Part shown: piece after piece, positions 36,072 through 63,884 of the stretch
Position numbering within the stretch: the first letter of the stretch is position 1
Layout of the letters: the number at the start of each line of letters is the position of its first letter
Source: Ulota crispa
Lineage: Eukaryota; Streptophyta; Bryopsida; Orthotrichales; Orthotrichaceae
Assembly (NCBI GenBank): GCA_963920765.1
Contig: OY987248.1
Coordinates: 12,496,539-12,560,538, forward strand
Direction of reading: 5' to 3'
DNA length: 64,000 nucleotides
Notes under the pieces: model-generated
What the model was told of the DNA's origin: nothing
What the model saw: the letters and a program-made list of their open reading frames with translations, nothing else
The model's database searches: none
Position numbers and translations under genes: made by a program

Positions 36072-37012
36072 ATAATCTAGCCTTGGGACCTTTATTTTGT
36101 CAAAAGACACTCAAAACTGCCGTTTCTATGGCAAAGAGGAAAAAAGTTGAAAATTGGTCTTTTTGCATATCTAACCATAGGATCTTGTACTAGATTTGTA
36201 TAAGAAAGTGTAGAAAAAATCTCACAAACTTTGATAGCACAAAATGCAAGATATTTGCGTTTAAAGTGTAAAAAACAAACTTTTTTGCACCTTGCATGAT
36301 TAGACTATTTAACTTTTGAACTTCTTTAACTTCAAATTTTTGCACCACAATGTTTTGAGGTTATTTTTTTATGTTGGAAAATTGAGTTGAGAATCTTCAA
36401 AAAAAATCAAAACAAAAAATACTTAATTTTCATTTTAAAAAATACATTAGGTAGAACAAGGTATGAGATTGAACAAAAACTTAAATTGTTAATAACCCTG
36501 CAATGGAATTGAAATGCAATAATCCCAATGGCAAGATTGTTCTAGAAAGAAAACTTCACCCTTTCTGACAAATTTTTTGGAAAAATGTTAAAATTGCATT
36601 CAAAAGTGAAGTTCATAAGTTATTTTTTCAAGAAGATGCTTGAGGTGCCCAAAAAATAAGATTGTCCATAACTTTCTCATAACTAGTCCAAATGAAATGA
36701 ATCAAAGCTTCAAATGTAGACAAAACTATGAGAAACTAATTAAAAAGAAAATTTAAGTTTTTGTAAAAAAAAATTGTTTGATCCCCATAAATTTTTACTT
36801 ATATCGGCATAACTTTTGCTCTCGGGCATAACTTTTGCTCGGGCATAACATTTGCTCTCGGCAGAAATTGGAATAAAATTTATGTTCCTCGAAAGCTAAT
36901 GTGTTTTTTTATCTTCAATAAAAATTTCAAAAAATCAAGACAAAAATTGAGGCCATAGGTACCTGCCCAAATTCCCATTTATCCCAGGGGACAACAAGAC
37001 TTTACAGGTTAA
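36072..37012. mobile_element. TTAA-family element, 941 bp, eroded left end
   Basis: The body is the same as 59339-60259, in opposite orientation ('gtcaaaagacactcaaaact', 'ggtgcccaaaaaataagatt', 'tcggcataacttttgctc'). Right end CTTTACAGGTTAA; left 'ataatctagccttggga' is a degraded CCCCTAAAG end. Non-coding. Confidence 0.75.
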
Positions 37013-37612
37013 CCTATATGTGATATTCAATGTTTTATTTCCTTGTGAGATACGTAGTTTAAAACTGTACAGTAAAATTATAACTTCTTTTTAATTGATA
37101 AAATTTCTTAAAGTTTTGGATTTTTTCTTCATTTAAAACAAACTTGGGGAAGTTCAGGAAAGAGCTTGGGCATTTAGCGATCAAACATCTATAAAATAAT
37201 TTTTCGACAATAAGATTCTATCATTTTGTAAATTTAATTATCATGCACTCAAAGTGGAGGATTATTACTTACTACTCCCATGTACCAGAGCCACAACAAG
37301 AGTAAAACTTGGTAGGAATTAATATTTTGTGCAATATAGTTTTCGTGGCAACTTTAGTCATGTTCAAGAAAAACCAAAATTTGAACATGTGAGGTGGATA
37401 ATGGAACCGCAAAAGAATCACAAAGTTAAATATAGAAGAAATTGATTTTTTTTCTTCGTTTCTATTTTCTATCCTTACACAAAAACAATGCTTTTTAAAG
37501 GCTTGAAGCAATTAGGGCTATCAAAAGAAAACCTGGCCTCCACATTTAAGTTCTAAGCAACTCTTGGTGTCCATGACTTGGATTCAAAAATTTGCAAAGT
37601 CAAACATGTCAA
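37013..37612. other. AT-rich DNA, nothing recognised
   Basis: No gene or repeat ends recognised. Confidence 0.45.
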
Positions 37613-38288
37613 TTAACCCCTAAGCGTCTTGTTAAGAAAATTCAGCATAACTCCAATATGAACCGATTTGATTTCAAATCCAAGTAAATCTGCAAAATTC
37701 TCACAGGTGAGAATCTCATGTTTTCCAATTTGGGCAACAGTTCAAAATATGGATTTTGGACTTTTGTGTAATCTTTTCTCAAAAAAAAAATTTACTTAAT
37801 GGCCGATCCCATGAGGTTGTGTCTTGCTATACTTGATGGAAAAAAAACTCCACAAATGGAAGAAAACTCCAAAAGATATGGTCACTCAAAGTAGCTAGAT
37901 TTCACTAGCTCCTTACTTTAAAGCTATAAAAACCTTGCCCAAATCAAGAAAAAAAAAGTGACACATCACCAAACTTCTCCATTGTACAACATAAGACATG
38001 AGAGCACCTATTCCATCCGCTCTCTAAGCAGCTCCCTTCATTTGCCCAAAGACATTCTTCTCCTAATTGTTGAAAAAATATATTTTTTCCATATTCCATG
38101 TAGAATCTAAAGCAAAAGAGGTGCATCAAAGAACAACAAGCCAATCAAATTTTTTTATTGAACTAGTAACTCCATTTGGACTTGAATGACAGACCAAAAT
38201 TTGAGCTAAAAATGCCTCTTTTGTATACTTTCACACTTCCAAGCACCCCATGTGGTCAAATTGGGCTCTTTGATCCTTTAGGGGTTAA
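37613..38288. mobile_element. TTAA-family element, 676 bp
   Basis: TTAACCCCTAAGCGTCTTG at left and GATCCTTTAGGGGTTAA at right. The interior is not obviously shared with the 900-bp members. Confidence 0.65.
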
Positions 38289-39078
38289 TGTCCTTGGCAC
38301 TTCTTTCTCATTATACATGAATTGGTCATTCGAATAAACTTCAATTTTGCTTTGGAAGATCACCATGAAATAGATACTTACCAAGTAATTGTCTTCTCCA
38401 TAACAAACAAAGTTTCACCAAAAAATAGGTAACATTCTTCCAAGTATTACAATTTGCTATACAAATAAAATCTATGCCTTGCCTTCTTGTGCAACATAAA
38501 GGCTTAAGTAAAGTATTTGGTACAAAAGTGGTGTCAATGATAATGCTAAGAAAAATGAAGAAGATGTGGATGCAAATTTTGAGGTAATGACTTCATCCTA
38601 ATAAAATCAGTAGGTTGTTCTGTTGATAATAAACCATCTTGCATGTCAATTTCATTGCATTTTTATTCAATTATAATCAATTGTGTCTTTAATGAACTTG
38701 ATTTATTAAAAAAAATTGATAAAATTCTTGAATTTTTCATAAAGCATTGGAAACTTTGAAGAAAATATTATGTGTTTCTAGTAATACCATAGTTTTTATG
38801 GTTAATGAAATATATAAATCGTTCTTAACTTATGCATGAACCAATTTATATTGATGGGAGATTTATGTTCCATTTGTTAATTGGCACTTTGTGAAGCAAG
38901 GGTAGTCATAGTCCTTCAGAAATATTTAATCCATGACAAGCATTCAATATCAAGGTGTAAAAGCTAGTCGAGTATGAATAGTTATTGGAAATGCAAGAGC
39001 TAAATAAATTCAGTAAATTTATATTGTAAATGATCTAAGTACATAATAGTACGAATATGCTTATTAATTGTTTTCTTG
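38289..39078. other. AT-rich DNA, nothing recognised
   Basis: No feature. Confidence 0.45.
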
Positions 39079-39983
39079 TACAGCGGCCTCCAACAAAGAT
39101 TGTCGGGCCAATTTATTACATTGAGAGGTTATGAAAATGAGGTCCATTGGTCTTTTTTTTTCTTGTCTTTTTTATATTTCATTCATACCACAATCCCAAC
39201 TAAGCATATCAAATTTCAACCCCAAAAAATTTAAATTTAGATAAATTGTTTTGTGTCACAAATCATGGTTTTACAAGAAAATTGATTATTAAATATTGAT
39301 GATGAATTTTGGAGATTTGATTGCATGGGTATATAGGTAGCATCCATAAGCACATCCATATGCAAATTTTTCAAGCTAAAAACAACCCCTTAAGTAAAAA
39401 AAATTGATTTTTAAAGGGTTTAGTGTGACCTGTGATATGTCCAAATTTTATAAAATAGATATTTTCTTATGATAATCAAATTTTGCTATTTGACTCATAC
39501 ATTGTAACTAAGTTTGTACCTTTGAACATGCTATTGTGTTTCTTTGGTGAAAAGCAAATTAAAAATTAAAGTATTTATTTTACAAAATTTGGACATATCA
39601 TGGGTCACACTAAACCCTTCAAAGATCAATTTTTTTTACTTAAGGGGTTTTTTTTTAGCTTGGAAGATTTGCATATGGATGTGCGTATGGATGCTACCTA
39701 TATACCCATGCAGTCAAATCTCCAAAATTCATCATCAATGTATATTAATCAATTTTCTTGTAAAACCATGTAAAATCATGATTTGTGACACAAAACAATT
39801 TATCAAAATTTGGATTTGGATTTTTTGGGGTTGAAATTTGGTATGCTTGATTGGGGTTGGAGTATGAATGGAATATAAAATATACAAAAAAAAAGACCAA
39901 TTGACCTCATTTGCATGTTAAAAACATGGCATGACCTCCAATGGAATAAGCTGGCCCAACAATCTTTGTTGGAGGCCGCTGTA
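39079..39983. mobile_element. Foldback element with long terminal repeats, copy F2, 905 bp
   Basis: Ends TACAGCGGCCTCCAACAAAG at left and CTTTGTTGGAGGCCGCTGTA at right are perfect inverses, and the match continues (attgtcgggcca / tggcccaacaat). Long inner arms (39185-39470 and 39570-39860) also pair and belong to the F1 arm family. The TA at each tip fits a TA duplication of a Tc1/mariner or pogo-like mobiliser. No transposase. Confidence 0.88.
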
Positions 39984-40167
39984 CTATAGCAAAACATATT
40001 CTCAATATTGTGTTTTGAATTATAGTTCAATTCTACAATGTTGAGTTCCATGAGCATTGTATCGATTTTGAGTTTTTCTTTTAATTAAAATTTCAATATT
40101 TTAAAACCTAAGCAATCAACAACTAAGTACTTTGAAGCAAATCTATTTGAAACAGATTACCTAATTA

Positions 40168-40467
40168 GAAAAAATCTAAGCCCTCAATAAGGCCCTGAGT
40201 TTCCAAACATGGGAACCTTGGGCCCATTACACCAAACTTTGCATGTGCGCAATCTGACGTGGCACCATTGGTGCCACGTCAAACTGTATTATTTTATTAA
40301 TTTTAAAAAATAAAAATAAAAATAAAAAATAAATTTTTTCTAAGACATTTTCTTTTCTCTTTTTCTTTTTTCTTTTTTTCAAAAATTTAATCTAGCGACT
40401 AGCAAGACTGGTTCCCCACATCGAGAACAAAAATTTTAAGGGCCTTATTGAGGGCTCCAATTTTTGC
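40168..40467. mobile_element. MITE-like element, family D copy D2
   Basis: 'gccctcaataaggccctga' at left and 'taagggccttattgagggct' at right. Inside it is a perfect 27-nt palindrome (40255-40281) of 13-nt arms TGACGTGGCACCA around one base. Confidence 0.7.
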
Positions 40468-40479
40468 ACAAAGTTTGTG

Positions 40480-40652
40480 CACATGTAGAAAAAAAAGGAT
40501 AAATGAGTGATGTGACTAGTTCATAACAATTGCACAACAATTGGACGATTACAAAATGGACTCATTTTGTAATTGTGTAATTGTTGTGTAGTTGTTGTGC
40601 AATTGTTGTGAACTAGTCATGTGCAGTCGTTTATTCCCGTTTTTCTACTAGT
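40480..40652. mobile_element. CACTA-like hairpin MITE, eroded copy
   Basis: Left CACATGTAGAAAAAAAGG, right end reversed reads ACTAGTAGAAAAACGGG, folding through 'caattgcacaacaattgg' and 'cacaacaactacacaacaa'-type arms. Same architecture as 45719-45912. Confidence 0.6.
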
Positions 40653-43199
40653 CAAGAATGATTCTTGAATTTTACATAGATGGGTGTATTTTCAATAAAA
40701 AAGGCTTTCCTTTCATTGTATACCAACTTAGCTAATGATTTCTTCAATTGTCAAATTGATAGTTTATACAATCTCAAAGTATCTACATTTTTTTTTATAA
40801 GAAGATAAATAGAAAAGAAGTTAATATATTTTTGATTTTGAAAAAATCCCAATTTGATACAAGTTGAAATCATTGTTAAAAGTAATAAAGCTTCAGAACC
40901 TTTGAATGTAGAAGATGTGTAGCTGAGATGATTTTGGAATTATAAGCTTCATCGATACATGAAACAAAATCGAATGTTGCTTATGAAGAAAATTGTATTT
41001 AAAAATTGAACCATTTCTCATTTATGTTTAAAGAGTCTATAACAAAATGCAATAATACCAATCACTAGTATTTTTTTGATAATATAGTCAAAGATATGTG
41101 TATGATTGAAAAAAATTGTATTATCCCTCTTTAAGGATTTATGCTCTTAAGCATGTTTAGCACAAAACTAACAAAGTCAAATCATCCCATAGCTTAGTAG
41201 ACTTGACAAATTCAAAGTTAACTAGTAGGTAGAAAATCATATCAGAAGTCATTTTACTTAAGATTACCACTATGATGCTTGAAATTTTAATCAACATTCT
41301 TGATTCTATTTTTTTCAAACTATTGTTCCATAGTCTTAACAAAATCATCAATTATTTTATGCTTATAAAATTGTTATCTTAAAAATGCACCTTTGTGTAT
41401 TGACCTTACCATTGTCTTCTATGGAAATCTACACTCTCTTATTGGAAGAAATCAACTACAAGTTGACCAACATTTGTGATTCAAAGTATCCTCTAAGCAA
41501 TGAATTTCATGTAGATTAGTTAATATCAATTACTTTGATTATGGATCTCTAAAAGCAAACTACAAGCTTCAAAATTTATGAATAAATTGTTCATTTTCTT
41601 TAAAAAATAAACATATAAATAGAAACTTATAAAAGAAAAAGAAAAGAAAAGAAATAATGTGAGAATTAGCAATCATTATTTTGCTTGGTGGACAACCAAT
41701 AATGAAGACTTTAAATGAGAAAATAGACCACAATGAATGGATGATGAAACTAGGGTTGATTAGGTAGGATATAACAACTCAATCAACTTCAACAACAAGT
41801 GAATTGGTGACTTTTTGCCAAACACCTCCTTTCAAATGACCAAAAGCAATAACTCTTAACCACTCAATTACTTGAACGTGCAACCATTTAAACACTTAAA
41901 ACCTATATTTTTATGCTTCTTAAATTATCTTGAACACTATTGCATTTACAACTGCTAATTTCTACCAAACTGCAAAAAAGAAAAACTCTGTAACAAGATT
42001 AGTCTATCTACTTATATCAAAGGTCCAAATCATGCCAATTCAAATATACACCCTTCAAGGTCAAATCAAACAAAAACTGTAAACAAGTTTGTGGCAAACC
42101 TATTAATATATCTAGCTTCTTTTCTTCTTTTCTTCTTTTTTTATTTTTGTCACAAATGGCCAATGTAGCCCAAGAAACTCATTTAAAGTCCATGATTGCC
42201 TCCTTAAGAAATTCATAATATTCAACAAAAACAAAAACAAAAGGAAAAAAATAATCACATAAAAGTATTCATTGACCTTTTCAAAACCCCTCAACTTACA
42301 AGTGACCTTCCAACCTCTACACACAATTGAAGAGGAAATTAGAGGAGAGAGCAACCAAAACAAAAATGAGAAAGAATGTCATAATAAAAATGAAAAAGAG
42401 AAAAAAATGTAAAAGTGAGGATATGAATGGATGCTCTATGCAATTGCAACCTGATCCAAAGCTAGGTTTAATCTATAAGTTCATCTTATATAGTTTACAT
42501 GCATCTATTGATCTTTGCTAATGTTTGTATCTTTATTTTCAAATTCAACTCCATCTCTAACAATTTTATGTCTTTAACTTCACCTTTGTTTTCATCTCCA
42601 TTTACTTCTTTTTTTTTCAATTGAGTTTAACAACAATTCATTTCTATTCTACTCCACATCTTAAACGTTTTGGAAACCAAAATTTAGTCAAATCCTACAA
42701 ACTAACATTAATATCCATTCCTATTCAAATCATTTAGTACGGCATAGCTCAAATTACTTAGTACGGCATGATAGCTCAAATTGTAAACAATCTAAAGGAC
42801 TAAAATCCTCATTTACAATTTGGATGATTTAAAACAGTAAATATTTGCAAGTCTAATGTGCAACCTGTTTTTTTTAGACATATACCATTAGTCAGAATTA
42901 ACACATGAATTTCTTCCTAAATTGTCTTCCTAAATATTCAATATGATGTAGAACCACAAAATTGAGTCAAAACAATACTGTGTATCATGTAGTTCAAAGA
43001 CAGTTCAAATTGTTGGCATTTACAAAAAGCTCCGCATAGTAAGTATATATTGTAATCTTATGTTGAGACTCCTTTGACAAATGATATTGTTTACAAAAAA
43101 ATAAGTACCCCTAGTTTTTGTTTAAATATATTAAACAATAAAATTATTTAGTGATTTATCTGAGAGCAAAATTTGGTCAGATAGAACTTAAAACCCAGC
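40653..43199. other. AT-rich intergenic DNA, nothing convincing
   Basis: About 2.5 kb without a gene. A 25-bp direct duplication around 'tacttagtacggcatgatag' lies near 42731-42782. The frame at 42327-42521 is a run of A-rich lysine codons, not a gene. Confidence 0.5.
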
Positions 43200-44063
43200 T
43201 TAACCTCTAAAGGACTTGATCCATTTTGAAATGGTTAAACTTCATGTTTAAGCTCAATTTTGTCTTTTAAAGTGTGTTCAAACAATAATTTTGTATTTTC
43301 ATTACTTGAAATTATGAATGATATATCACCACAAGAAATCTCAACTTGTTTCATGAAAACTTGTAATTGTTATCATTTTTTTTCAAAAAATGAACACAAA
43401 TAAGTTAAAATTTAAAAAAAAAATCCAAATTACTTGAATTTTTTTCAAGAGGTACAAGGAGCATTAAAGATAAGTGTGAAAAAATTTCAATTGCTTGTTT
43501 TATTTTTTACACCCAAAACAGTCACAACAAAGAATCTAAAGTCAAATTTGACTATCAAACTAAGTTTATCCTTATATTTAATTAATTTATAAAATTTTGA
43601 TATTTTTCCTTGGAAGACACATGCATTTTTTATTTATATATATATTTTTGATAAGCTTGATGGAAAATTCGAATTATTGTGTTTTTTTGAAGCTAAGTGT
43701 AGAAATAAACTCATATTAATTATAATATTTATTAAAAAAATCTATAATTTCTACTATAAATGAATGGTAGAATGAGAAACATAGTTTTGTAATTTAAATT
43801 TTAAATGTATTTGAAGAGTAGAAAAGATGAATGAAAAACACACCATATTGTGTTATTTGGATTTTGACACTTGGAGCTTTCAATGGCAATAACTCTTTTG
43901 ATTTTTGACGTTTTAAAAAAAAGACTAAATGGAGTAAAAAGGAAACTAGTCAAAATTCATTTTTAAACTTGAACCACTTACCAAAATTGGATATTTTGAA
44001 AGTTACAATTAGGGTTGACCAAGGTGCATTCACTTTTTGGATGCACGGACCTTTAAGGGTTGA
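43200..44063. mobile_element. TTAA-family element, about 864 bp
   Basis: TTAACCTCTAAAGGAC at left, GGACCTTTAAGGGTTGA at right. Interior AT-rich. Confidence 0.6.
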
Positions 44064-45017
44064 CACATGATAGGGTGGAACCCAAAATGAGGTAGGATAG
44101 AATTTATTACTTATGCTACACTAGGTTTTTTTTATGAATATGCACCAAAAAAAACATTGTTGACTTTGCAATCTTTACATGTATCTAAATGTTTCTTTAC
44201 AAATTAGAGCCTTTCAACATTCATTTTCAGTATTCGATATTGATTAGATTGTAATGGTTCCTAAAACCAATGTTTGTAAAAATTATTTCTTGTCTAGAAG
44301 GTCTTGAATGTCTTGTATTTGATTTTTTATAAAGATGGTTGTTTTCCATCATTTTGTTAGATGCTAAATCTTAACACACATGCTAGTAAACCAATATTTT
44401 TGGATAAACAACTTAGTTCATCATACAAATCTAAGGTAAATATCAATTGTGAACATTACCTACACATATAAATAATGTATGTATAGAAATAAACATAACA
44501 AAAAATACACTGCAAAGCAAGCTAATCTAAACTTCAAAAAACATTGTCTTCTAAAATTCAAAAGACAATATTTTTGTACTTCAATACATAGAATAGGCCA
44601 AAGAGCTATAGTTATTGTGAAATTAGCAATAAGTGATGCACTTTCCAATTCAAGCCCATTCAGTTCAAATAAGTTGAATAATCTAATATGTGGAAATGTG
44701 AAATTTCCAAAATCCAGGTTCTATAAGACACGCCACAATTATAAACATAATAGTATTAATGACTATAAATTTAAAATCATAAAATATCATTTGATTTTTA
44801 TTTTAATTATTGTATAATGTGAAGAAGTTAGAATGTGACAAATTTATGAACATGTGGGTGCATCAAAAAAGCATCCTTTATGAAAGACATTAGTTCCTGT
44901 TGAATACAATGGTCTCTTTGAAACAAATTTTTGCAAAAAATTTTTTAATACTTTAAAGAGTTAGTGTAAATTTTGTTCTAGAAGAATAATGCAATGATAA
45001 CTTCAAAAAACAGATTA
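44064..45017. other. AT-rich DNA, nothing recognised
   Basis: No gene or repeat termini recognised; overlapping frames at 44460-44817 on both strands lack protein likeness. Confidence 0.45.
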
Positions 45018-45500
45018 CCTGCTAGAACAATCTCACCATTGAGATTATTGTGTTTCGATTCCATTGCAAGGTTATTAACAATGTAAGTTATTACTCAATC
45101 TCAAACCTTCTTCTATTTAATGTTTTTTTAAGAATTAAAATTAAGTATTTTTTGTTTTGGTTTTTTGCCAAAGATTCTCAACTCAATTCTCCACCATAAA
45201 AAAATAAACCTCAAAACTCCATGGTGCAATAATCTTTAGTCAAAAAAGTTCAAAGTCAAATAAACTAGTCGTGCAAGGTGCAAAAACGCCGGTTTTTACA
45301 CTTTAAACGCAAATGTCTTGCAATCTGTGTGGTCAAAGTTTTTAAGTTTTAAATGACACTTTCTTATACAAGTCTAGTATAAGATCTTATGGTCAGATAT
45401 GCAAAAAAACCAATTTTCAAACTTTTTTACTCTTTGCCATCGAAGTGGCAGTTTTGAGTGTCTTTTGACAAAATAAAGGCCATGGTCCTTTAGGGGTTAA
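45018..45500. mobile_element. TTAA-family element, truncated copy
   Basis: The right half of the 59339-60259 type, same orientation: 'ctagaacaatctcacca', 'gtattttttgttttggtttt', 'gtcgtgcaaggtgcaaaaac', ending GGTCCTTTAGGGGTTAA. The left half is missing. Confidence 0.8.
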
Positions 45501-45718
45501 GAAACATGCATGTTTTACATTTGTCAAAACTAAGATTTACGGGTCATTATTTAAATTAAAACCATTGCTATTTGGGGTGAAACATACTTGCATTCTTTGA
45601 ACTACATTTTTTTTATAAGTAAGGGTTGTAAAATTCTATATAAAACAAACACTAACACAAAAGTCTCAGAACATTTTGATGAACAAGTAAAAAATCCATG
45701 TATAAATGGAACATGTAT

Positions 45719-46054: not shown

Positions 46055-47015
46055 TTAACCCCTAAAGGACCAAGGGTGTTTTCTGAGAAAAAATCTCAGA
46101 AATTGGCAAATTTTAGTGCACTGCCCAAAATTGAAATTAAAAACTTTTATTCTCAATTCCAACCATACAAAAGTTTGTCAAAATAATAAATAAATATGTG
46201 CAAAAAAATTCAGCCCATTTGACCACACAGATTGTAAGATTATAATGTTTGAAGTGAGAAAAATAAGTTTTTTTTATTCATGCAAAACAAGGTCAACAGA
46301 CTTTGAGCCTTTTTGGAGTAAAATTTTGGCTCTACTTAAATTTGAGCTTTTTGACCATTCACAAGTATATGATGTTAGGTTCACTCATGAAAAATTTTAC
46401 ATGCAAATATAGAATCTAGCTTATTGTAAATCACCCTGCAATGCAAGGAGGTTAAGTGAATTGGCAATACACTAGTCATTCTTTCATGATTTCTTCTACA
46501 ATGAGGAAGTCTTTTATATGAAATCTAAACGGCAAAAAGTTAAAGACAAATATTTGGAATTAGTGAAAAAAAGTTTCAAGAGATTTGGATTTATAAATTG
46601 AAAGATAATAGGGCTTGAAGTTAGAGGATTTTTTTTTCTTGAAATTACTAGAACACAATTAACAAAGTTTGATTCCCTTCAAAACTTGATGTGGGAGCTC
46701 AATTTTTTTTGTTTTTTGACAATTGTACACCAAATTTTATTGATTACATACTTGCCAAATTTCAAAAGTTGATGAGATTTTTAGCATAAGATTCTCCAAA
46801 GGTGCCCAAGCTGCCCGGGCTGCCCAAATTCTTATAGGCAGCATAACTTTTGAATTAGGTATCCAATTGGGGAAAAAATTACATTTCCACTTAAGGGATA
46901 CATATTTACACCTTGTGTGACAATTTTGAGAACATCCAATAAAAATCAACTCCATATGACCCTACCCGAGTTCTCAAGTGGCTATTGAACAGCCACTTGG
47001 TCCTTTAGGGGTTAA
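46055..47015. mobile_element. TTAA-family element with perfect 20-bp ends, 961 bp
   Basis: TTAACCCCTAAAGGACCAAG at left; the right end is its exact reverse complement, including the TTAA. Its interior shares phrases with the family, such as 'gggcagcccaaattctt'-type words, but has no open frame of weight. Best-defined member in the window. Confidence 0.9.
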
Positions 47016-47887: not shown

Positions 47888-48566
47888 TTAACCCCTAAAT
47901 GCCCAATCGACCATTTTTTGGTTGCTGCCCTTTTTGCGGGCTACCCAAGATGAACAAAACATTTCAAAATAAAATAAAATAAATCTTCATTTAGGAAAGC
48001 AAGTCTACTTTTCAACCCAATTTGTATCATGTCAATCCAAGTTAAACTCCATCAAGGAGAATTTTCCAAAGACAAACATGTCAATATTTGCTAGTGTTAC
48101 AAAAATTACTATTTTGGGAGCCTATAATGTTCTCTTCTTCAAAAATATTGCATTTTTGGATTTTGGAGGAGAATGTTTAATTTTACCAATTGTATTAAAT
48201 TTTAAATTCTATGAATATAATTTGTAATTTTGATGAATACTAAATGATAAATGCTTCTAATATTCATTAAATAAGAGTCCAAAACCCTTTTTGAATGTTT
48301 GACCACATGGATAATTACAAAACATCAACATTCTTGTTTTCCCTTTTGAAGCAAACTTCATCAAAGTATGGTTTAATTTTTTGACAAATAAGTCCTTTAG
48401 TGTTGTGTCCACATTGGAGAATATTGAGAGGGAATGAAAACCATTGGGGAAAATCTGTTAGAGGTGGGATTTTTGCCAAAAAATTAAACCATGCATCAAA
48501 GCTACAAAAATATCATTTTATAACGCATCTACGTTTTGCCCTTATCCTTGGGCGTTTAGGGGTTAA
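47888..48566. mobile_element. TTAA-family element, 679 bp
   Basis: TTAACCCCTAAATGCCCAA at left, TTGGGCGTTTAGGGGTTAA at right: inverse ends with one difference over 19 bp. Confidence 0.85.
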
Positions 48567-49479
48567 AGAACTACAAAACTCCGTTTCCCAAGGACATGGA
48601 GGAGAGACCAGAAAACCAAATGTCAGAATGCCACTTGGGAGAAAAAAGGGGAGCAAATACAGAATGCAATTGCGGAGGGGCTATATTTATTTATAATTAT
48701 TAGTATGTAATATGAACTTCCAATCAGAGGGGGTCGAGTTCATTTACAACACTAAATGTAAAAAACTTTTGCACCAACCAGGCTACCAGGCTACCAGCCA
48801 TAGAGGTCCATAAAGGGAGCTCAGAGAATGCAAATGGTTTTATCCGGGGTGCAATCCTTATTTTTGGGGGTTTCCCCTGTTTCTGAATGGTTTCCATTAC
48901 TGAAATGACATTTCGTTGTATGGCCTTGTTTTCATCTTACATAAATCTCAAATAAACGAAAACAATCGTTGATTAGATATTGTATGAATAGATTGATGAA
49001 TTTCAAAGTTTCTCTCACAAGGTGCAAAGAATATTCACCTTATATTTTATTACTATTTTTTTTCACACAATTGAAAGGAAGTTCATTACAATAAATGGTA
49101 AGTAAAATGGTTTAGAGGCAAGAGAGACCACATGAAAAATTAGATAAGGTTGCAAGTAGCTAGCAAAAAGGGAGCCAAAACCACCTATGAACACATCAAA
49201 CTACATCTCAAGCTAGCACAAGATGAATAGTGCAAGCCAAGCACAAAATTTATCATGTGCCAATAAGGATCCATTGAGATTTCCCATTAGTCATGTTAGC
49301 AAATTTAATTAAACATTTTCATTGGTGGCTAGTGACACATGTAAGATTGCATGCAAGTGATAAAATACTACATAAATCATCAATGAGCGTGCATTCATCC
49401 ATTAAACAACTATTAGTAACTTCCATCTAAAAAGTGAGGACCTATTGTTTCTTTGAGAAGGATTTTTTACTATCTTTTT
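48567..49479. other. Intergenic DNA, nothing recognised
   Basis: Includes a less AT-rich stretch at 48570-48900 ('ccaggctaccaggctaccag') without a convincing frame. Confidence 0.4.
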
Positions 49480-49551
49480 GCTTATTCCCTCAAAAGTGGC
49501 ACTTTTTAGTGACTTTCACAAAAAAAAAGGGCTTGGTCGTTTAGGGGTTAT
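49480..49551. mobile_element. TTAA-family right-end fragment
   Basis: 'tcaaaagtggcactttttag', then 'gggcttggtcgtttagggg' and TTA, the same terminal wording as 56640-56712. No matching left end was found. Confidence 0.6.
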
Positions 49552-50522: not shown

Positions 50523-51435
50523 TTAACCCTTAAAGCACTCAACACCTTTTTTTTTTGACAATATAACAATTTTGGGCAGCTCACTACCAATGGGTTTTCA
50601 TTTTTTTCTTTGAAATTTTCACACATGATGTGTCCAAGGAGTAGCTTTAAGATCCAACAATTTCATAACTTTTGACTTCATAGTTCAAAAGTTATTGCAT
50701 GATATATATAGTTTTCCTTGCTCGGTGGGCAGCCAATTTTTTTTTTTTAAATTATATTTTTTGAAGTTGGTTTTTTAAATTGATATATACTTGGGAAACT
50801 TTGAATCATTCCATTTTGATCAATGAGATGAAGGTTATGAGGAGATTTTGTTTGCGGGCAGTTATGGATTCTCTACTCTAAAATAAAATTTGAAGTTCAT
50901 TAATTTACTCAATTTTCAATATTTTAGAAGGAAATCAAAACTGAAAGATGTAGATTGTTTATCACAACCATTGGGATTGGAATTTTTCATTTTCATAATT
51001 AAGTTCTTAACAATTTAGTGGTTTGAATCTTTCTCTACTTCTTTTTACTTACTATTGCTTTTTCATGTGTTTCAAAATTCCAAATGATTTGAAAATTTTC
51101 AAGTGTGTATCGAACTTGCTTTGAAGAACAAATCCAAAAATTTACAACCATTTTGGAGGTTTTTTCATACAAACATGACCTTGTGAAGTGCAGTTGCCTG
51201 AATTTTTGTAGAGACAAAAAATGGCTTTTTGTCACTTCATACTCAAATATCTAATAATCTACATGGTGAAAACTCTTGGATTTTTTTTTCACATCTTTTG
51301 ATACTAATGTAGTACAAGATCTTACAGCTACATTTGTCAAAAAAAGTTTTTTTTCTAAAATTTGGTACTTGTACTAGGAATGACAATTTTGGAGCGGTTT
51401 TGGTGAAAAATTAAGCTTAGTGCTTTAGGGGTTAA
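50523..51435. mobile_element. TTAA-family element, 913 bp
   Basis: TTAACCCTTAAAGCACT at left, AGTGCTTTAGGGGTTAA at right. The interior (ttcataattaagttcttaac; tatggattctctactct) matches 60868-61804 in inverted orientation. The immediate flanks are themselves inverse ('cacatcttcaccccattct' / 'agaatggggatgtgac'), so it landed near the centre of a small palindrome. Confidence 0.85.
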
Positions 51436-52590: not shown

Positions 52591-53312
52591 TAGTGGGTGT
52601 CAAACTTGGCATTTTTCAAGGTTTCTAGATAACTTTGGCCCGATTTTTTGTTAAAGTTATGGGGCGGTGGCTGAACCAAATTCTCCAAAGTTATGACCCT
52701 TGCAAAGTTTCACAAACTACTTGATAAAAATTTGAGTAAGCCTTCATAATTTATGTATGGGATAATGTCACAAAGATTGATGTGTGATACTAAAGAGGGA
52801 GAGTGTGATACTAAAGGAGGGTGTGATATTAAAGAGGAGGATGTGATATTAAAGAGGGAGGGTGTGACATTAAAGAGGTTAGTGCTATTACTAATCATAC
52901 TACTAAAATCTCAATTATCTCAATAATATCACACCCTAACCTATCACACCCTCCCTCTTTAATATAACAACCTCCCTCTTTAATATAACAACCTCCCTCT
53001 TTAATGTCACACCCTCCCTCTTTAATGTCACACCCTCCCTCTTTAGTATCACACCCTCCCTCTTTAGTATCACACCCTCCCTCTTTAGTATCACACCCTC
53101 CCTCTTTAGTGTCACACTCTCCCCCTAGAAGAGAGCTACAAGATCACTTGATAACTTTTATAAAGAGAGGCCATAACTAGTTAGAGTTGTCACCCACCTC
53201 TAGAGGTGGGTGACAAAGTTATCATACTTGATAACTAGCAAAAGTGGTTGAGTTAAGGGGTGGTTGGAGCCAAAGTTATGGGGTGCCAAATGGCTAAGTT
53301 TGACACCCACTA
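52591..53312. mobile_element. hAT-like MITE with internal inverted minisatellites, copy G1
   Basis: TAGTGGGTGTCAAACTTGGC at left; right end reversed reads TAGTGGGTGTCAAACTTAGC. The termini resemble the plant hAT end TAGGGGTGTCAAA. It directly abuts G2, so no target duplication can be read. The interior holds the 21-bp arrays listed separately. Confidence 0.75.
52781..53125. repeat. Two inverted arrays of a 21-bp minisatellite
   Basis: Right array (52944-53125): eight units of CACCCTCCCTCTTTAGTATCA type plus a partial one. Left array (52781-52880): four to five units of the reverse complement. About 60 bp of AT-rich spacer lies between. Unit variants (TAATATAA, TAATGTCA, TAGTATCA) run in blocks, showing stepwise local amplification. 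Confidence 0.92.
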
Positions 53313-53796: not shown

Positions 53797-53836
53797 TTGC
53801 TTCCATACTTTAGGATGGAATGCCACAAGAGGGTTT

Positions 53837-55139: not shown

Positions 55140-56944
55140 CTACTTGTTTGAAATTTAATTATAAGATTTTCCCCTAGAACTATGGGAGGTGCTTGTGGGA
55201 AAAAATCAGCTCACTCTAGATGTACACAAGTGAGATATTGACATCTGAAGTGAAAAATAAAAATAAAATCCCTGCTACCCAAAAATTTCAAAAGCCTTTA
55301 ACCACTCTTAAAAAAAATTGCTTTAGGCAAAGTTGAGGTTTATTTTCTCCATGTAGAAGACCAAGTTAGGTAATTGTGAGAGAATTTTCACATGAATTGG
55401 AAGTGTGAATCATACTTTGTAAAATCTTGCAATGCCGTAAGGTCATGAAATTTGCATATACACTAGGCAAAATTGAAGGGTTTATGTAAAATTCAGAAAT
55501 TCAAATTACTTGGATCTGAATGGTTAAAACCCAAAGAATCTAAGTCTACTACAACTTGGAAAAAAAGAAGTCAGAAAACAAATATACAAAGAGCTCAAAA
55601 AAGTAAAGCACCAAATTTTACATAAGATAAGAGGAATGGAGGTTTGGGACTCCAATATCTACTTGCAAACTAATACCTCTCACTCATCAATCAAAATTGA
55701 ATGATTCAAAGCTTTCCACATAATATAAAATCTAAAGAACCAATTTCAGAATTTTAGTTTTTAAACCCCTAAAGGCCCAAGTGGTCCCTTGGGGGCCAAG
55801 TGGGGTTTTGTGCATGGACCTACATCTAAACTACTTTATGTGATTTTCTGAAAATTTTATAGAATATGGGGAATTCAAAGATCTACGTGGGCATCTAATT
55901 CTTTCTTCATTCTGACGTTTATTGAAGAAGTTTGCATGAATAACTAAAAAATAGGGGAGAAATGGGCAGCCCCAAAACAAAGTTTGTGTTTTATTAAATA
56001 AAATTTTAAAATTGGTTCTTTTTATTTATATATATGTGGGAGGCTTTGAATCATTCAATTCCAATTGATAAGATGAAAGTTATGAGAAGTTTTGGTTTGC
56101 GGGTAGGTATGGGACTCCCAAACCTCCATTTCTTTTGGCCCTTGTAAATTTTGGTACTTTACTTTTTTGAGCTCTTTGTGTATTTTTTACTTTTTTTTTT
56201 CCCAAGTTGTGGTAGACTAAGACTCCTTGGTTCTCACCATTTGAATCAAAGTAATTCAGACTTCTCAATTTTACATAAATCCTCCAATTCTGCCTAGTTT
56301 ATATGCAAATTTCATGACCTTCTGGCATTGCAAGATTTTACAAAGTATGATTCACACCTCCAATTCATTTGAAAATTCTCCCACACATACCTAACTTGGT
56401 CTTCTACATGGGGAAAAGAAAACCTTAGTTTTGCGTAAAGCAATTTTTTTGATATAGGAGTGGTCAAAGGCTTTTGAATATTTTGGGTAGCAAGGAAATT
56501 ATTATTTTTTCACTTCAAATGTCAAAATCTCACTTTTTTAAATCTAGAATGAGATGATTTTTTTCCCACAAGTACCTCCCATAGTCTAGGGCAACACCTT
56601 ACAGTTGGATTTCTAAAAATAACTTTTTTCCCTACCATTCTACTCATTCCTCCAAAAGTGGCAGTTTTGAGTTACTTTCACAGAAAAAAGGGCTTGGGCC
56701 TTTAGGGGTTGAATGAAATTTTAAAAGAACTTTTTGGCTGCCCTCTCTCCCCCATTTTCAAGAAATTCATGCACATCTTCTTCAATAAATGTTGGAATAA
56801 AGAAAAAAATAGATGCCCACATAGATTTTTGAATTCCCCACCTTCAACTAAAATTTCAAAAAATTACACAAAGTAACTTAGCTGTAGGAATATGCCCAAA
56901 ATCCCGTTTGTTCCTTGAGGAGATAATGGTCCTTTGGGGATTAA
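55140..56944. mobile_element. TTAA-family element (outer), interrupted by a second member
   Basis: Two pieces, about 55140-55760 and 56713-56944, are collinear with 60950-61804: 'atgattcaaagctttccaca' and 'ctaaagaaccaatttcag' before the break, then 'gaactttttggctgccc' and 'tttgaattccccaccttca' after it, ending CCTTTGGGGATTAA. The left terminus is missing. Confidence 0.85.
55761..56712. mobile_element. TTAA-family element (inner, nested, inverted), 952 bp
   Basis: Ends CCCCTAAAGGCCCAAG and CTTGGGCCTTTAGGGG, perfect inverses over 16 bp, flanked by TTAA at left and TTGA at right. It reads opposite to the element it interrupts ('ttggtcttctacatgggg' here against 'ctccatgtagaagaccaagt' in the outer one). 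Confidence 0.9.
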
Positions 56945-58159
56945 ATGCAGGCATAACTATAACTCAAAAATCATAATTATTGAAATTCTTGGAAGCAATC
57001 ACTAGACTTCACTATTGTACAAAAATATGCACACTTGTTTTTGGGTGATATGCAAATACATACATAATGACAAAAACACTGAAAGTATCAAAATGTATTG
57101 TTTTTTCCAATTTACTTATTGAGGCTATGATAGCCGCAACCTCAATGTAAGGTGGCAATACCATATCGTAGTTTACACTTACAATGTTGGTGGAAAATTA
57201 ATATGACTAGAAAATCAATGTGGTTGAAGATGATACGGAGGAAATTTTGAGTGATCGGAGAAAATAAGGATAGTTGTAATGAATGCAGGCCACGTTGGCT
57301 AGTATTTGCCACAAAAAATTGTTTTGTAGTAAATTTCGTACCAATTTGTAGTAGGAGGTAGAATTGATATTGTTTGGATTGATGTTACTCAATATAAACC
57401 AATCGTAAGTGACTATGTCAAGTAACAACATTCCAGTAGTCTTCCCAAATATGTTGCATCAATTTGGGCATCCAAAATCTATAAATTAGCTTTTCACATA
57501 CATGTTTGCATTGTTGTGTATTTCTAGACCAATGTGCATCTCCACAATGTACTCATGCTAGTCAAAAACTTCTCAAAATAGTGTGGGCTACTATGTTTTT
57601 GCTATAAAAACAAGTAATTAGTGTGGCCCACATTTTGTGTGAAAGTTATTGTAGTAACAAGTGTTGGATGGTAGAATAATTTCATTTTAAGTTAGAGCTT
57701 TATAATGCTTTCTATGTAGGAAGGCCAATTGATGAAAACAATTGTTTTTGCAAAACCAATCATTCAAATAAGATCTTAGGTGTCTATATTTGTTTTGGAA
57801 TTAGTTTTTCTGTGTGTTTCCTTTCCTTCACCTTCTTTGTGACTAAACTTTTTTGAAGGCATAAAGACTTTAAATTGCCTTATTTGAATCTCAAATCAAT
57901 TTGTACATAAGTAATCTCAATCAAAATCCAATTTCTACACATGTTTATGATATTCATGTATGTTTGGAGTACCATAATGTGTAAACAAGGCATAGAAGAA
58001 CTCTAGCCATAATAAATGTAAGATTTTAGGTGCTATTAAAATTGTGTATGCTTAAACATTCAACTATATCTATTAAGTAACATACTAAAATATAGATTAG
58101 CACATGGCATTAAAATGGGCCTTTTAAAACTTAAAAAGAAGTAGATGCATTTACCTACT
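56945..58159. other. AT-rich DNA, nothing recognised
   Basis: A short hairpin 'ttgaggctatgatagccgca' plus 'acctcaatg' near 57118-57147. No gene. Confidence 0.45.
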
Positions 58160-59087
58160 TTAACCCCTAAAGGCCTTTGACTATGTTTCACCTAACAACA
58201 CTAGAAACTAGTCATTTTGATAGTAAAGGCAAAAAAATTGAGGATGAAATCTTGGTGCAATTATAGGATTTCATAGCAAACTACTTTATTATGTTGTAGT
58301 AAAAAGATGAAATAAATCTATTGCATTGATTGTAAAAATATAGGGCTTGAAGTGAGAAATAGTTTATTTTGGGAGGGGGCATTCAAATTCTAGCAACTTT
58401 AAGTGGGAGAGGTTTTTGCACCAATAAATTCCACAATTTTGATTGTAAATTTTTTAACCTAAGCCTATAATTGAGCCGGTCATATGCTCAAAAAATTTAA
58501 TAACATTTGGATTGGGGATCACATACTAAAAATTTGGAATCAAAATTAGCTTCAAGAAGAGTCTTGTACAAAGTTTTTTTTCAACAACATGTAACTTCCA
58601 CAAACAATCATCTTTTCAAAATGTGCAAGGTGGAGCTTCAAATTTTAGATAACTTCAAAGGAAAGAACAAATTAAAGGAAATTGGCCAAAAACGGTAGCT
58701 TTGACAAGCTTGATTAACATAGGGCCACTTTCAACAAAGGAGAAGTAACTGGCACTAGTAAAAACAATTGCCTTTAGGGAATGAGGTTGGGTTAGAAAAG
58801 GCAAGGAAATATCTTTACCCCTCAACCTTTGGGCAAGACTCCAAAATTTCAGGTGTAGTATAAACAAATTATGCATCTGTTGCCCCTCAAACACAAAAAC
58901 AACACACTCCATCATAATTTTTTTCTACAAATCAAAATGGTTTGAAAATTATTGCTTTGAAAAACTACTCCTTGGACACACATCCTCTAGTTTTTTGTGA
59001 AAATGTATTTATTATTTTACAAGCATTAGCTTGTTCAAAATTGCAATGTTGGCAAAAAAGATTGTTGCTTGGGCCTTTAGGAATTAA
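58160..59087. mobile_element. TTAA-family element, 928 bp
   Basis: TTAACCCCTAAAGGCCTTTG at left, TTGGGCCTTTAGGAATTAA at right. Frames on both strands near 58655-59211 are not protein-like. Confidence 0.75.
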
Positions 59088-59338
59088 ACTAGCCAATTCA
59101 GAAGTGTCATGGTGTCTTTCGTTGAGAATCTTCAAAAATAAAAAATACTTCATGAACATGATAGGTTATTTGAACCCAATATCTAAATATCTAGTATATG
59201 CCATCCAATAGATTTTTTTGCAAGATTCCATTATGTTACTTTGTTAGGCAAGCCAAGACCTCTAAAAACCTTGACAAAGTTCAAAAACATTTAATGATAT
59301 TATCTGATTGAAATTTTAAAAGAAAGGTCTACATTTTA

Positions 59339-60259
59339 TTGACCTCTATAGCCATGTCATACCCTTGAGGGAAAAATGGGATTTTGGGCAAGTACCTACA
59401 GCCTTGATTTTTATCCTACTTAAAAAAAAAAAGATAGAAAAACACATTAGCTTTTGGGGAATATAACTTTTATTCCAATCTATGCCTCAGAGCAAAAGTT
59501 ATGCCCATATAAGCAAATATTTATGGAGATTATACTTTTTTCTTACAATAACTTGAATTTATTTATTTATTAATTTATTTATTTTCTCATAGGTTATAGT
59601 TTTATCTACATCTGAAGCTTTGATTCATTCCATTTGGACTAGTTATGAGAAAGTTATGGACAATCTTGTTTTTCAAGCAATTCAAGCATCTTCTTGAAAA
59701 AATAACTTATAAACTTCATTTTTGAATGCCAGTTTAACATTATTTTTTAATTGTTGAAAAGGGTGAAGTTTGCTATCTAGAACAATCTTGCCATTGGGAT
59801 TACACTGTTTTAGTTCTATTGTAGGTTTATTAAAAATTTAAGTTTTTGTTCAATCTCATACCTTCTTCTAGCTAATGTATTTTTTAAGAATGAAAACTAA
59901 GTATTTTTTGTTTTGGCTTTTTTCCAAAGATTCTCAACTCAACTTCCCACCTTAAAAAAACAAAATTTCAAACTTTATGGTGCAAAAATTTGAAGTTAAA
60001 AAAGTTCAAAGTCAAATGATCTAGTCATGCAAGGTGCAAAAAAGTTTGTTTTTTACACTTTAGATACAAAATATCTTACAATCTAGGCGGTCAAAGGTTT
60101 TGATTTTTTTTTCCCACATTCTAATACTAGTCTAGTACAAGATCCTACACTTAGATGTGCAAAAAGACCAATTTTCAAATTTTTTCACTCTTTGCAATAG
60201 AAATGGCAATTTTGAGTGTCTTTTTGACAAAATAATGGCCCTCGGGCTTTAGGGGTTAA
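59339..60259. mobile_element. TTAA-family element, 921 bp
   Basis: Left TTGACCTCTATAGCC (degraded), right CGGGCTTTAGGGGTTAA. Nearly full-length partner, in inverse orientation, of 36072-37012; the right half also equals 45018-45500. Confidence 0.8.
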
Positions 60260-60867
60260 AATCAATTCTTCAAATATCATAATTAGACTCTTACCCTCAA
60301 GGGACTACTGTAGTAAATACAATCACAATGGATTCAAAGTTGCAAGGCCTTACAAATATAATGTGGGCTTTAAAAAGGAGTGCCTCACTCGTGCCTCACT
60401 ATAAGTGGTCCAAAGGTGATTTTTCTAATTAATGCAAGGCTAGCTTCCATCTTTCCCCAAATCTCCTATTTCCCTTTCTATGTATTGACCTAACATGGAA
60501 GAACTCCATTTTCCTGCTAGTGAGAAAAAAAGTAAAATTTGGCCCCCTTTTGTGTAGCTGGTCATTTTTATCCCAACTTAACTACGAAATAAAATAATTT
60601 AGGGTCTTTTAAATCATATACATGAATTCAAAATTTTCAAGTTTAACTAATTGTGGTAAAAAATTAAATTCAAACGTTTTCTTCTATAAAAGAATTCTGC
60701 ATTTTTTCATCCCCAAGTCCACTTGAACGAGAAGAAGGGATTTGGGAAAGCTGAATGCACGTACTTAGATACTAATAAAACCACATCTTAATTGTTTCTA
60801 ATGTCAGGCTACAAAAAGCCATGAGAAATCAAGATTTTCCCCAAGAATTAGAATCCCCTTGTCCTTC
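60260..60867. other. Intergenic DNA, nothing recognised
   Basis: No gene or clear repeat ends. Confidence 0.4.
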
Positions 60868-61804
60868 TTAGCCCCTAAAGCACTGAGCCATTTTTTCTGT
60901 GAAAATCACTCAAAACTGCCACTTTTGGGGGTTAGTAAGAAGGTAATTTTTTTAAAAAATTTGGGAAATTCAACCGTAGGATCTTGCCCTGGATTGGATT
61001 AGGTACTTGTGAAAAAAAAAAATCATGTCATTCCAGATGGACATGAGTGAGATATTTACATCTAAAGTGAAAAGAAAAGTTCTTTTTCATGCTGCTGCAA
61101 AATTTCAGAAGCCTTTGACCATTCTTACATGAAAATAATTGCTCTACGCAACTTTGCGCTTCATTTTTCCCATGTGGGAGATCAAGTTAGGTATGTGTGG
61201 GAGAATTTTCAAATCAATTGGAACTACACAGCACATGGGAAAAATCAGTAAGTAAAAAGAAGTAGAGAATGAGTCAAATCACTAAATTGTGAAGAATTTA
61301 AATATTGAAATGAAAATTGCAAATCCTAATGGTCAAATGTTGTGATAAACAATCTACTTCCTTTGGTTTAAATTTTTTCCATAATATTGAAAATTGAGTA
61401 AAATAAAGGACTTCAAAGTTTATTTTAGAGTAGAGAATCCATAACTACTCGCAAACAAAAACTCTTCATAACTTTGATCTCATTGATTGAAATTGAATGG
61501 TTCAAAGCTGATCACCTATAAAAAAAATCTAAAGAACCAATTTCAAATTTTAATTTAAAAAAATAATAATATTTAAAGAAGTTTTTGGGCTGTCCAAGTG
61601 GGTAGTCCTCCCCAACCTTTTAGAAATTCTAGCGTAACTTCTTCAATAATTGTCAAAATGAGGAAAAAATTAGATGCCCGCGTAGATCTTTGAATTCTCC
61701 ACTTTCAATAAAAATTTCAGAAAATCACACAAAGTAGCTTATCCAAAGGTACATGCCCAAACTCCCACTTGTCCCCGAGGGGACAGCAGTCCCTTACGGG
61801 TTAG
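60868..61804. mobile_element. TTAA-family element, 937 bp, with TTAG at both edges
   Basis: Left TTAGCCCCTAAAGCACTGAG, right CAGTCCCTTACGGGTTAG. The same body as the nested pair at 55.1-56.9 kb and 50523-51435. Both edges have TTAG in place of TTAA, which would be a target-site variant or parallel mutation. Confidence 0.8.
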
Positions 61805-62394
61805 AGAGGAGGTTTGGTTATTTCATCCAATTCTTCACCTTCTATATTATAGAGTCATGGTAATGAGTGTCAAATGAAGTAAAGAATTTGGTAAAAGCAA
61901 AATAAAAACAACTGGCCAAAAAGGATACTATTGTACCCGGGTAGGTTGGTGGGGTCCCCAAGCCATCACCATGTGCCAAATTGGATGGCTGTTTCCCAAA
62001 AGAAAGTAGCCCACTTTAGCTTTAGTTTTAAAGCCATCATAAAAGGCCGGCAGCTGAAAATAGTGTTCTGCCAGTGATTAATGGATTGATTGGATAGCTT
62101 TTGGATTCAATCATTAAACACTATCCCGTGATAAAGTAAGCCCCGGAAACCTTTTGGGACTCTCCATTGATCCAACGACACGCGCCCATGAATGCAGGCA
62201 GGTGAGGCAGATTATGGATGGTTCCGTCCAACGAGAATCATTCATCCATGGAAACAACTATTATTAATCACCTAAAAATTTTCCTCCAGTTTTTTAGTGC
62301 TAGGACTGTGTCAAGATGACGTCATACTTTAACAGAATTAAAAGAAGGCGTAGTCACATTAAAAACAAGCGAAGAGAATCCACACTCTTACTGG
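61805..62394. other. Less AT-rich intergenic DNA
   Basis: Possible short inverted phrases 'ctgaaaatagtgttctgcca' and 'attaaacactatcccgtg'. No gene recognised. Confidence 0.4.
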
Positions 62395-62545
62395 CTGAAT
62401 TTGAGGCGTTAAAAGTTTACATCTATTTTTAAATAATTCTCAAAAAAAATTGTTTCCCACCCCACCCATGCTTACTAAGTGTGCCCCATAAGTAGTCAAT
62501 TGGTCAATCATTAAGTGGGATATAGGATAAAGCTCCCAAACTTAC
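62395..62545. repeat. Dispersed repeat family H, copy H3
   Basis: 'catctatttttaaataattc' and 'cataagtagtcaattggtca' in the order seen in H1 and H2; the most diverged copy. Confidence 0.5.
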
Positions 62546-63636
62546 AACAAATATATCAAATAGTGCATTTAGGTTGCCTTAATCTTTGAGTGTTCATGTC
62601 ATATTCATCAAAATTAGGGTTTTTGGAGACCAACAACTTTGATGCATTGTATCTTAGTCAATTGGATGATTCACAAAAAGTGACCATTGAAAATAGTGGA
62701 ATACCTACTTAGAAAATGGCTTGCAAAGTTTGGGATCTATTGACCATGGGAGATGGGAGATGGGAGATTATAACATTTGATCAAACAAAATGTGATGACA
62801 AAATCTCATTTTTTGGTAGGTAGTTGCTATTTGATGATTTTTACAAAATTTCACAAGCCCATGGTTCATCTTAAATTTTGTGAGCAGCAAGATTAAATGT
62901 GAATGCACATACTTGTAAATTTTTGAAGATTGCACTTCTTCTTATGTCAAGTTTTAGGGCTTCAAATCACTATTGCACGGAAAATAGTGACCAACATAGT
63001 CGGTGACGATTGCCATAATAAGGGTCTAGAACATGTGAACCCTTGCCAACAACTTTCCCACTACCGCAAAGCACACACAAGGAAGCTTGCAAGGGATATT
63101 GACCAATCACAACTTGTAAAACGCTACTTGCCACCACGTCTCGTATGGTGTTTCACCCAATCAAATCTCTTGCAATACTTGTACAACATTTGGCTTTCCT
63201 CACCATTACTCCATTAGCATGGACAACTTGAATGCCTTCATAGTTGTGATTTATAGTAAGATCAAAAAAGTAGATCTGGTACCTTAAATAGGCATTTGAA
63301 ATTTCCAACAACAGTATATTGTTGCTCGGGAGCTCAAGGGTTAACAATTAGGTTGCCTTACCTTGGCAAACTTACCTCATGATTTGCCTGTGACCACCTA
63401 GAGTTGCATTTAACTCTTTATATGTTGTAGTAATTCTTGATTATGTGTAAAGTTTCAACTTCCTTGCTCCAGGATTTTAGCGCTTGTTGTTGTGCCCAAC
63501 CTCTAATTGCTTCCTCCATTGTTTATTACAACAATTACTAACGAAAGTTACTATAATCTTGGTAAATTTTTGAATATAGTGAGATATTGATAAATTAGTA
63601 TGGAGCAACCTAAAAGCACTATTTGGTGTAGTGATT
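62546..63636. other. Intergenic DNA with a weak open frame
   Basis: The frame 62930-63217 (containing RKIVTNIVGDDCHNKGLEHV) is the only protein-like stretch in the last 4 kb; no family or splice partners are recognised. 'gagctcaagggttaac' near 63331-63344 may be a stray TTAA-family end. Confidence 0.35.
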
Positions 63637-63884
63637 TTAACCCCTGAGCGCCAGCCCAAATTCATGATGTGTTGGACCTCATTGCAAACAATTTGGCATT
63701 GCAAGTTCAAAAACAACATCTAGAAGAGTTAGTCGTTGATATTGCACAAGGTTTAGGATCCATAGATGTATGAAATATTTGGTAAGCATTCATTACATGG
63801 ATCAAAAGATTATAATAGTCAAAGTCAACAAATTGTTGAATATAGAGAGGCTAGATTTGGGGCGTTAGGGCACTCAGGGGTTAA
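63637..63884. mobile_element. Short TTAA-family element, 248 bp
   Basis: TTAACCCCTGAGCGCC at left, GGGCACTCAGGGGTTAA at right, with TTAA at both edges. The interior is unlike the 230-bp C copies. Confidence 0.85.

Follow-up and report, generated by a model that had tools for sequence, protein, structure and literature searches.

The window analyzed here is a 64-kb stretch of the moss Ulota crispa (C7:12496539-12560538; genome of 274.8 Mb, assembled into 157 contigs) harbouring numerous short elements bounded by CCC-starting inverted repeats and TTAA, which are very probably miniature inverted-repeat transposable elements (MITEs) of the piggyBac superfamily. The terminal sequence TTAACCCCTAAA, at up to two mismatches, matches 46 times in the window as compared to 10.7 expected (standard deviation 3.25), a number reached in none of 100 shuffles. 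Nine distinct inward-facing end pairs were detected (at most three mismatches summed over both ends, spacing 150-1150 bp), namely 11115-11931, 33328-33561, 37613-38288, 43200-44063, 46055-47015, 47888-48566, 50523-51435, 55762-56712 and 58160-59087; the search returned ten rows, one of which represents the same element in a second register. Four further pairs have weaker ends (12748-12973, 59339-60259, 60868-61804 and 63637-63884), and a fourteenth copy at about 36086-37012 was identified from the body and the right end; at 36050-36110, no match to a left end at up to three mismatches is present. The first-pass annotation had counted at least fourteen paired copies, a number that holds if degenerate ends are included; among the sites it also named, 11115 and 33328 are paired, whereas 13786 was seen as a single end (three mismatches). 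Other single ends lie at 45500, 49551, 54547 and 56944.

The window copies fall into several size subfamilies rather than one (about 230-250, 680 and 820-960 bp); some have bodies in common, others are alike in little except their ends, and no stop-to-stop frame of 130 or more amino acids was found in them. Both ends read exactly TTAACCCCTAAA only in the 961-bp non-autonomous type copy at 46055..47015, which has TTAA on each side, and in the 679-bp element at 47888..48566, the left end of which begins with TTAACCCCTAAATGCCCAA. The 676-bp element at 37613..38288 has the ends TTAACCCCTAAG and TTAACCCCTAAA, the 817-bp element at 11115..11931 the ends TTAACCCCTAAACGTC and TTAGCCCTTAAACGTC. Larger elements comprise 913 bp (50523..51435; 79 % like locus L002 over 706 columns) and 928 bp (58160..59087; degenerate right end TTAATTCCTAAA). 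The 951-bp element at 55762..56712, flanked by TAAA/TTGA, lies in a nest of inverted copies and resembles locus L006 in each half, and the element of about 937 bp at 60868..61804 is 83 % like L006 over its length. An exact end at 60259 and TTGACCTCTATA at the other end delimit the element of about 920 bp at 59339..60259. The copy of about 930 bp at 36086..37012 (right end TTAACCTGTAAA, left end unrecognizable) has a body 78 % like 59339-60241 in opposite direction. The body of a copy with an exact right end at 45500 (45022..45500; left end not found) is 81-84 % like 59777-60259 and 36089-36545, and a single right end ATAACCCCTAAACGACCAAG locates at 49461..49551. The 248-bp element at 63637..63884 has ends TTAACCCCTGAG, which compare to the right end TTAACCCCTGAGCGCCC of the piggyBac-coding locus L043. 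Least certain is a possible 864-bp element at 43200..44063, both ends of which are degenerate and which was retrieved by the paired-end search alone.

A smaller family of about 230 bp includes the element of about 234 bp at 33328..33561 (TTAACCCTTAAACGACCATAGGGC end; 81 % like 9049-9240 and 78 % like 12775-12977), the element of about 226 bp at 12748..12973 with degenerate ends, and 9049-9240. Right ends similar to the ends of this family (TTAACCCTTTARYGACCATGG) are located downstream of the piggyBac-coding loci L039 and L013. The terminal repeat includes CCCTAAA, which is also the plant telomere unit; this is taken as a coincidence.

TTAA target sites and genome-wide abundance

Genome-wide, CCCCTAAAGGNCCAAG was found 5,668 times and is directly preceded by TTAA in 4,746 cases (84 %). 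In the local sequence (three loci left out), TTAA is present before CCCCTAAA in 28 of 38 and after TTTAGGGG in 32 of 39 instances. Empty sites were searched for by joining the flanks of 53 candidate copies (not all distinct) at a single TTAA and comparing them with all sequence collected. Readable empty relatives were obtained for three independent insertions (L049, L059 and L061:140-788), each with one TTAA where the filled site has two. L049 represents an insertion inside another copy of the 961-bp family, three uninterrupted relatives of which, among the matches listed (L055, L003 and L058), read TAG-TTAA-CAAAG; the window copy reads ACACAA-TTAA-CAAAG. The empty relative of L059, L063 (79 % over 212 columns), reads GAA-TTAA-CTACAATTTATC. 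For L061:140-788, the sequence AT-TTAA-A is found in all three of the filled locus, L058 (81 % over 142 columns) and window 16426-16267 (77 % over 164 columns); further rows for this insertion (L030, second rows in L058 and the window) are weaker, being gapped or of low identity. Several rows were set aside: L053 and L055 match their own locus, L061:1501-2513 joins the ends of two different elements, and the junctions of window 55762-56712 are too divergent to be read. The self-match of L049 was discounted as adding nothing, as was one row wherever a place appeared twice (window, L046).

A 4-bp duplication of TTAA upon insertion, as is characteristic of piggyBac, is the natural reading of these sites, because all four bases are kept on both sides. 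TTAA-specific insertion as proposed in the first-pass annotation is supported by the three empty sites and by the TTAA preceding CCCCTAAAGGNCCAAG; empty sites with a duplication other than TTAA were looked for and not found in the three readable comparisons.

The exact end TTAACCCCTAAA occurs 30,972 times in the genome (15,477 on the plus and 15,495 on the minus strand; reversed-pattern control, 77 with 41/36), which amounts to about one exact end per 8.9 kb. For the 961-bp element, 1,900 first-look candidates were obtained. Scoring covered 40 of them; 38 extend over positions 1-961, one over 8-961 and one over 1-951. Among these 40 of 1,900, the closest copy next to the window's own shows 93 % identity. 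Sixteen copies of this type, including that of the window, served to derive a majority sequence; their pairwise identities amount to 86-94 %, and those to the majority sequence to 91-95 %. Since they diverge from the consensus by 5-9 %, the burst looks old, and their star-like divergence suggests that it was a single one. If the 30,972 exact ends stand for some 15,000 copies, each about 0.9 kb long, these would make up roughly 5 % of the genome, which is an estimate and not a measured value. The window copies have the properties of MITEs in being short, non-coding and of high copy number, and in having ends in common with a coding element.

piggyBac-coding elements and their derivatives

A search of the genome with the profile PF13843 (DDE_Tnp_1_7, the catalytic domain of piggyBac) revealed 527 candidates, 116 of which were scored, giving 120 matches (best 1.3e-73). 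Transposase frames are given here as open frames, stops being read through in none of the genes. The open frames of L045, L039, L040 and L041 match PF13843 at 1e-25 to 8e-60, and those of L039 and L045 match in PDB (E <=0.1) only 6x67 and 9c0f, with E values of 4e-20 to 6e-17; we take 6x67, like 6x68, to be the piggyBac of Trichoplusia ni. In the L045 frame, VDEMM, MDNFF and GVDVADQ align with the aspartate positions of 6x67 and 9c0f, which are presumably the catalytic residues of the piggyBac DDD domain. The same motifs are found in the L012 frames, and L039 has GVNVGDQ in place of GVDVADQ. A C-terminal cysteine-rich domain is a trait of the piggyBac superfamily; cysteine-rich tails are visible by eye in the L045 and L012 frames, that of L045 having no piggyBac-related Pfam match.

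Two longer coding copies with the ends of the window elements, as had been called for in the first-pass annotation, were found, both with PF13843 matches. The first (C5:10867266-10873011, minus strand, 5,746 bp; L070, L012, L071) has TTAACCCCTAAATGCC on both sides, both exact, and two adjoining frames of 368 and 155 amino acids that hold the domain and a cysteine-rich tail. The second (C2:36777758-36782973, minus strand, 5,216 bp; L066, L084) has an exact left end TTAACCCCTAAATGCCC and a right end TTAACTCCTAAATGCCC with one mismatch. Another copy on C2 (C2:36762722-36767953, plus strand), in which the first 17 bp are missing, is bounded on the right by an exact end; its frame in L045 likewise matches PF13843. 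In a comparison over 4,954 bp, the two C2 copies are 99 % identical; they lie about 10 kb apart in opposite orientation and differ in their right flanks, so that homology stops at the element end. We read them as two insertions, one of them probably fairly recent, and as a candidate recent local jump. One inverted segmental duplication was rejected, given the different right flanks; one of the insertions has its left end cut by 17 bp. While the 961-bp copies appear to be old, some movement is, judged by the identity of the C2 copies, apparently more recent. Inside the C2 element, upstream of the piggyBac domain, an open frame of 464 amino acids rich in Gln, Glu and Arg was observed (L045:284-1678), without a Pfam match at E 0.01.

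A further family (the L009/L018 family, with L062 and L063) is represented by a complete 5.03-kb piggyBac element in two copies, 90 % identical and with different surroundings. Its ends TTAACCCCTCATCGCC and TTAACCCTTCATTGCC are unlike those of the window, and its domain has a distance of about 1.36 kb to the right end and of 2.5 kb to the left end. Overall, the coding elements measure 5.0-5.7 kb and their ends begin with TTAA-CCC (TTAA-CTC in one case). The inverted repeat CCCCTAAA...TTTAGGGG comprises about 12-20 bp; short terminal inverted repeats starting with CCC are typical of piggyBac. Of 17 coding loci, 11 have a correctly facing TTAACCC end on the downstream side of the domain, and a single wrong-facing match was counted across the whole set. 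In longer stretches, the distance between the domain and the end is 1.4-2.5 kb on the downstream side and 2.1-2.5 kb on the upstream side, the latter for loci in which a left end could be located. The ends left of L011 (L083:1817-2742) were rejected as ends of that coding element, as they are those of a 961-bp-type MITE.

When 4,954 bp of the C2 element served as query, at least 34 further places were revealed in which the match, at 80-87 %, runs to within two bases of the 3' end of the element or closer (40 of 1,882 candidates scored). One of these is the C5 coding element. Three of the other 33 were read fully; they comprise 0.92-1.06 kb with TTAACCCCTAAATGC on both sides, and in all three, the C2 element is matched by its initial 138-318 bases (72-81 %) and its terminal 557-699 bases (83-87 %). 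The three short copies are thus internal-deletion derivatives of a piggyBac element, and they show these ends and the transposase gene to be parts of a single unit.

The window copies are linked to the coding elements by their ends. For 46055-47015, the initial 28 bp resemble the right end of the C2 coding element at 93 %; for 47888-48566, it is the left end of this element that the initial 35 bp resemble, at 86 %. On the same chromosome as the window, locus L011 has an end 1.94 kb downstream of its piggyBac domain, with which the window ends at 45500, 49551, 56712, 60259 and 60868 have 57-59 bp in common at 78-84 % (49551, 58 bp, 78 %; right end of 55762..56712, 57 bp, 84 %; 60201-60259, 59 bp, 78 %; left-coordinate end of 60868..61804, 59 bp, 80 %). 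The bodies of the window MITEs had no match in the first piggyBac loci except for a MITE start beside L040.

Superfamily assignment and competing explanations

As seen in the sequence, piggyBac transposase genes reside in elements of 5.0-5.7 kb, two of which are bounded on each side by the end type of the window, and internally deleted derivatives of about 1 kb or less retain the ends. According to the proposed mechanism, the transposase would bind these ends, excise the element and insert it at TTAA, which would thereby be duplicated. Excision in the piggyBac superfamily is footprint-free. That a piggyBac-type transposase was involved, as initially supposed, is supported by the PF13843 elements bounded by these ends. 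We infer from the sequences which transposase moved each window subfamily; likewise, the window copies would have been bound, excised and moved in trans.

The first-pass annotation had named PIF/Harbinger as the main alternative, i.e., Tourist-like MITEs with a 3-bp TTA or TAA duplication. TTAA contains both triplets, and the genome is likewise rich in transposases of the type DDE_Tnp_4, which is that of Tourist/PIF-Harbinger (278 candidates; 150 of them scored, with 150 matches). Among 20 of these 150 loci, read with 1.5-kb flanks, one (L027) has a one-mismatch end within 1.5 kb, yet none has an exact end. Furthermore, all four TTAA bases are kept on both sides, locally as well as genome-wide at the above frequencies, a 3-bp duplication was found neither at filled nor at empty sites, and it is piggyBac-coding elements that carry the ends. 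An autonomous copy coding for a PIF/Harbinger or other transposase was looked for and not found in the loci read, the transposases bounded by these ends being piggyBac. On the basis of these loci and sites, a PIF/Harbinger origin is largely refuted and highly improbable.

Several observations weigh against the piggyBac assignment. Stops lie inside 110 of the 120 stretches matched by PF13843, and no intact full-length transposase gene was seen among the loci read. A TTAACCC end was absent from 6 of the 17 coding loci in the 1.5-2.7 kb read per locus, L009 and L018, which account for two of the 11 positives, belong to a single family, exactly TTAACCCCTAAA is found downstream in only three of the 17 (L011, L012 and L045), and 10 piggyBac loci read with flanks of 1.5 kb had no exact CCCCTAAA end. 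As exact ends occur about once per 8.9 kb, the end of a neighbouring MITE could pass for an element boundary; for the C5 and C2 elements this doubt is answered in part by the lack of nearby partner ends in the stretches read and by the homologous deletion derivatives. The same letters as for TTAA would also result if only the 3 bp TTA were duplicated next to an asymmetric element, which is formally possible. Finally, no two-ended coding element was found for the commonest window type (GG-type, ends GGACCAAG/GGCCCAAG), to which L011 contributes a matching right end only, so that the source of the GG-type group is a presumed one.

The latter finding, together with the GG-type bodies of the window being unmatched in the coding elements compared, would also agree with an undescribed TTAA-specific transposase that moved the GG-type copies (e.g., 46055-47015), piggyBac having moved only those of the TGCCCAAGG type. 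However, the right end past the piggyBac domain of L011 is of the GG-type and has the above 57-59 bp in common with window copies, and GG-type and TGCC-type ends are 93 % alike over 28 bp, making this explanation unlikely. Sola3 elements have TTAA duplications as well; this preference is the one point in favour of a Sola3 type, whereas the proteins encoded between these ends are of the DDE_Tnp_1_7 type and match piggyBac and piggyBat (no search was aimed at Sola), and we attribute next to no probability to it.

Comparison with known systems and further repeats

piggyBac is known mainly from animals, fungi and protists. That the present host is a land plant, and most likely a moss, also follows from contig C157, which has plastid psaA and psaB: its PsaA scores best against the PDB entries 8htu and 6l35 (1733 and 1713 bits), which are those of the moss Physcomitrium, ahead of the following entries with 1698 and 1651 bits, and differs from 8htu at about nine of 750 residues as counted by eye. 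The moss elements agree with piggyBac (6x67/6x68) and piggyBat (9c0f) in the TTAA target, the CCC-starting ends and a DDE_Tnp_1_7 domain with aligned aspartates. They differ in that their host is a land plant, the sequence similarity is only distant, and the coding sequence is spread over several frames, with the upstream 464-amino-acid frame of L045 in addition. TTAA MITEs of insects (a Helicoverpa study) are reportedly short and non-coding and belong to a superfamily with a TTAA target; the moss copies share these properties, but occur in a plant and with 30,972 exact 12-bp ends in 275 Mb. In structure they are ordinary MITEs of the piggyBac superfamily; what is unusual is the host and the very high copy number.

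According to a study on beetles, intact piggyBac elements measure 2.1-3.5 kb, as compared to 5.0-5.7 kb for the moss elements read, and CCCT is most prevalent in their terminal repeats (PMC12732532). Tourist/PIF-Harbinger elements are likewise short plant MITEs with a T/A target, but their 3-bp TAA/TTA duplication, as described in a MITE review (PMC10004981), was not found with the moss ends. Since this review lists PiggyBac among angiosperm MITE superfamilies, plant piggyBac MITEs are, as a category, already in print and not new. In the literature, piggyBac is described as occasional in plants with red algae as the example (PMC12732532, 2025), named among plant superfamilies (PMC10794571) and annotated 1,230 times in C-fern, at 0.00 % of the assembly (PMC6890710); in a paper on the moss Niphotrichum (PMC10619864), the passages with the word concern expression piggybacking. 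No description of piggyBac in mosses was found in the open-licence literature (leading results only for long lists).

A land plant with 527 PF13843 candidates (116 scored), several end families and 30,972 exact ends would extend the superfamily in host range and scale, and the moss elements would offer plant-adapted ends and transposases for testing. For the annotation of plant genomes, filing TTAA MITEs by default under PIF/Harbinger appears unwarranted. We tentatively consider it possible that a native, highly diversified piggyBac lineage exists in land plants, at least in this moss lineage, with elements of 5-6 kb that probably bear introns and have an extra upstream frame, with tens of thousands of MITEs, as a major DNA transposon and possibly acquired horizontally.

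Next to the TTAA elements, the window contains other repeats. One repeat, which contains sub-repeats and reaches about 600 bp in length, is present at 5690-6274, 6760-7184 and 17463-18056 (78-88 % alike) and also occurs in L055, L078, L079 and L083. Units of approximately 21 bp of the GGAGGGTGTGATATTAAAGAG type form an array over 52782-53126, arranged both in tandem and as inverted copies. A long hairpin-like element at 39078-39984, the nested inverted arms of which are 85-92 % complementary over about 900 bp, has relatives at 1479-2283 and 34827-35919.

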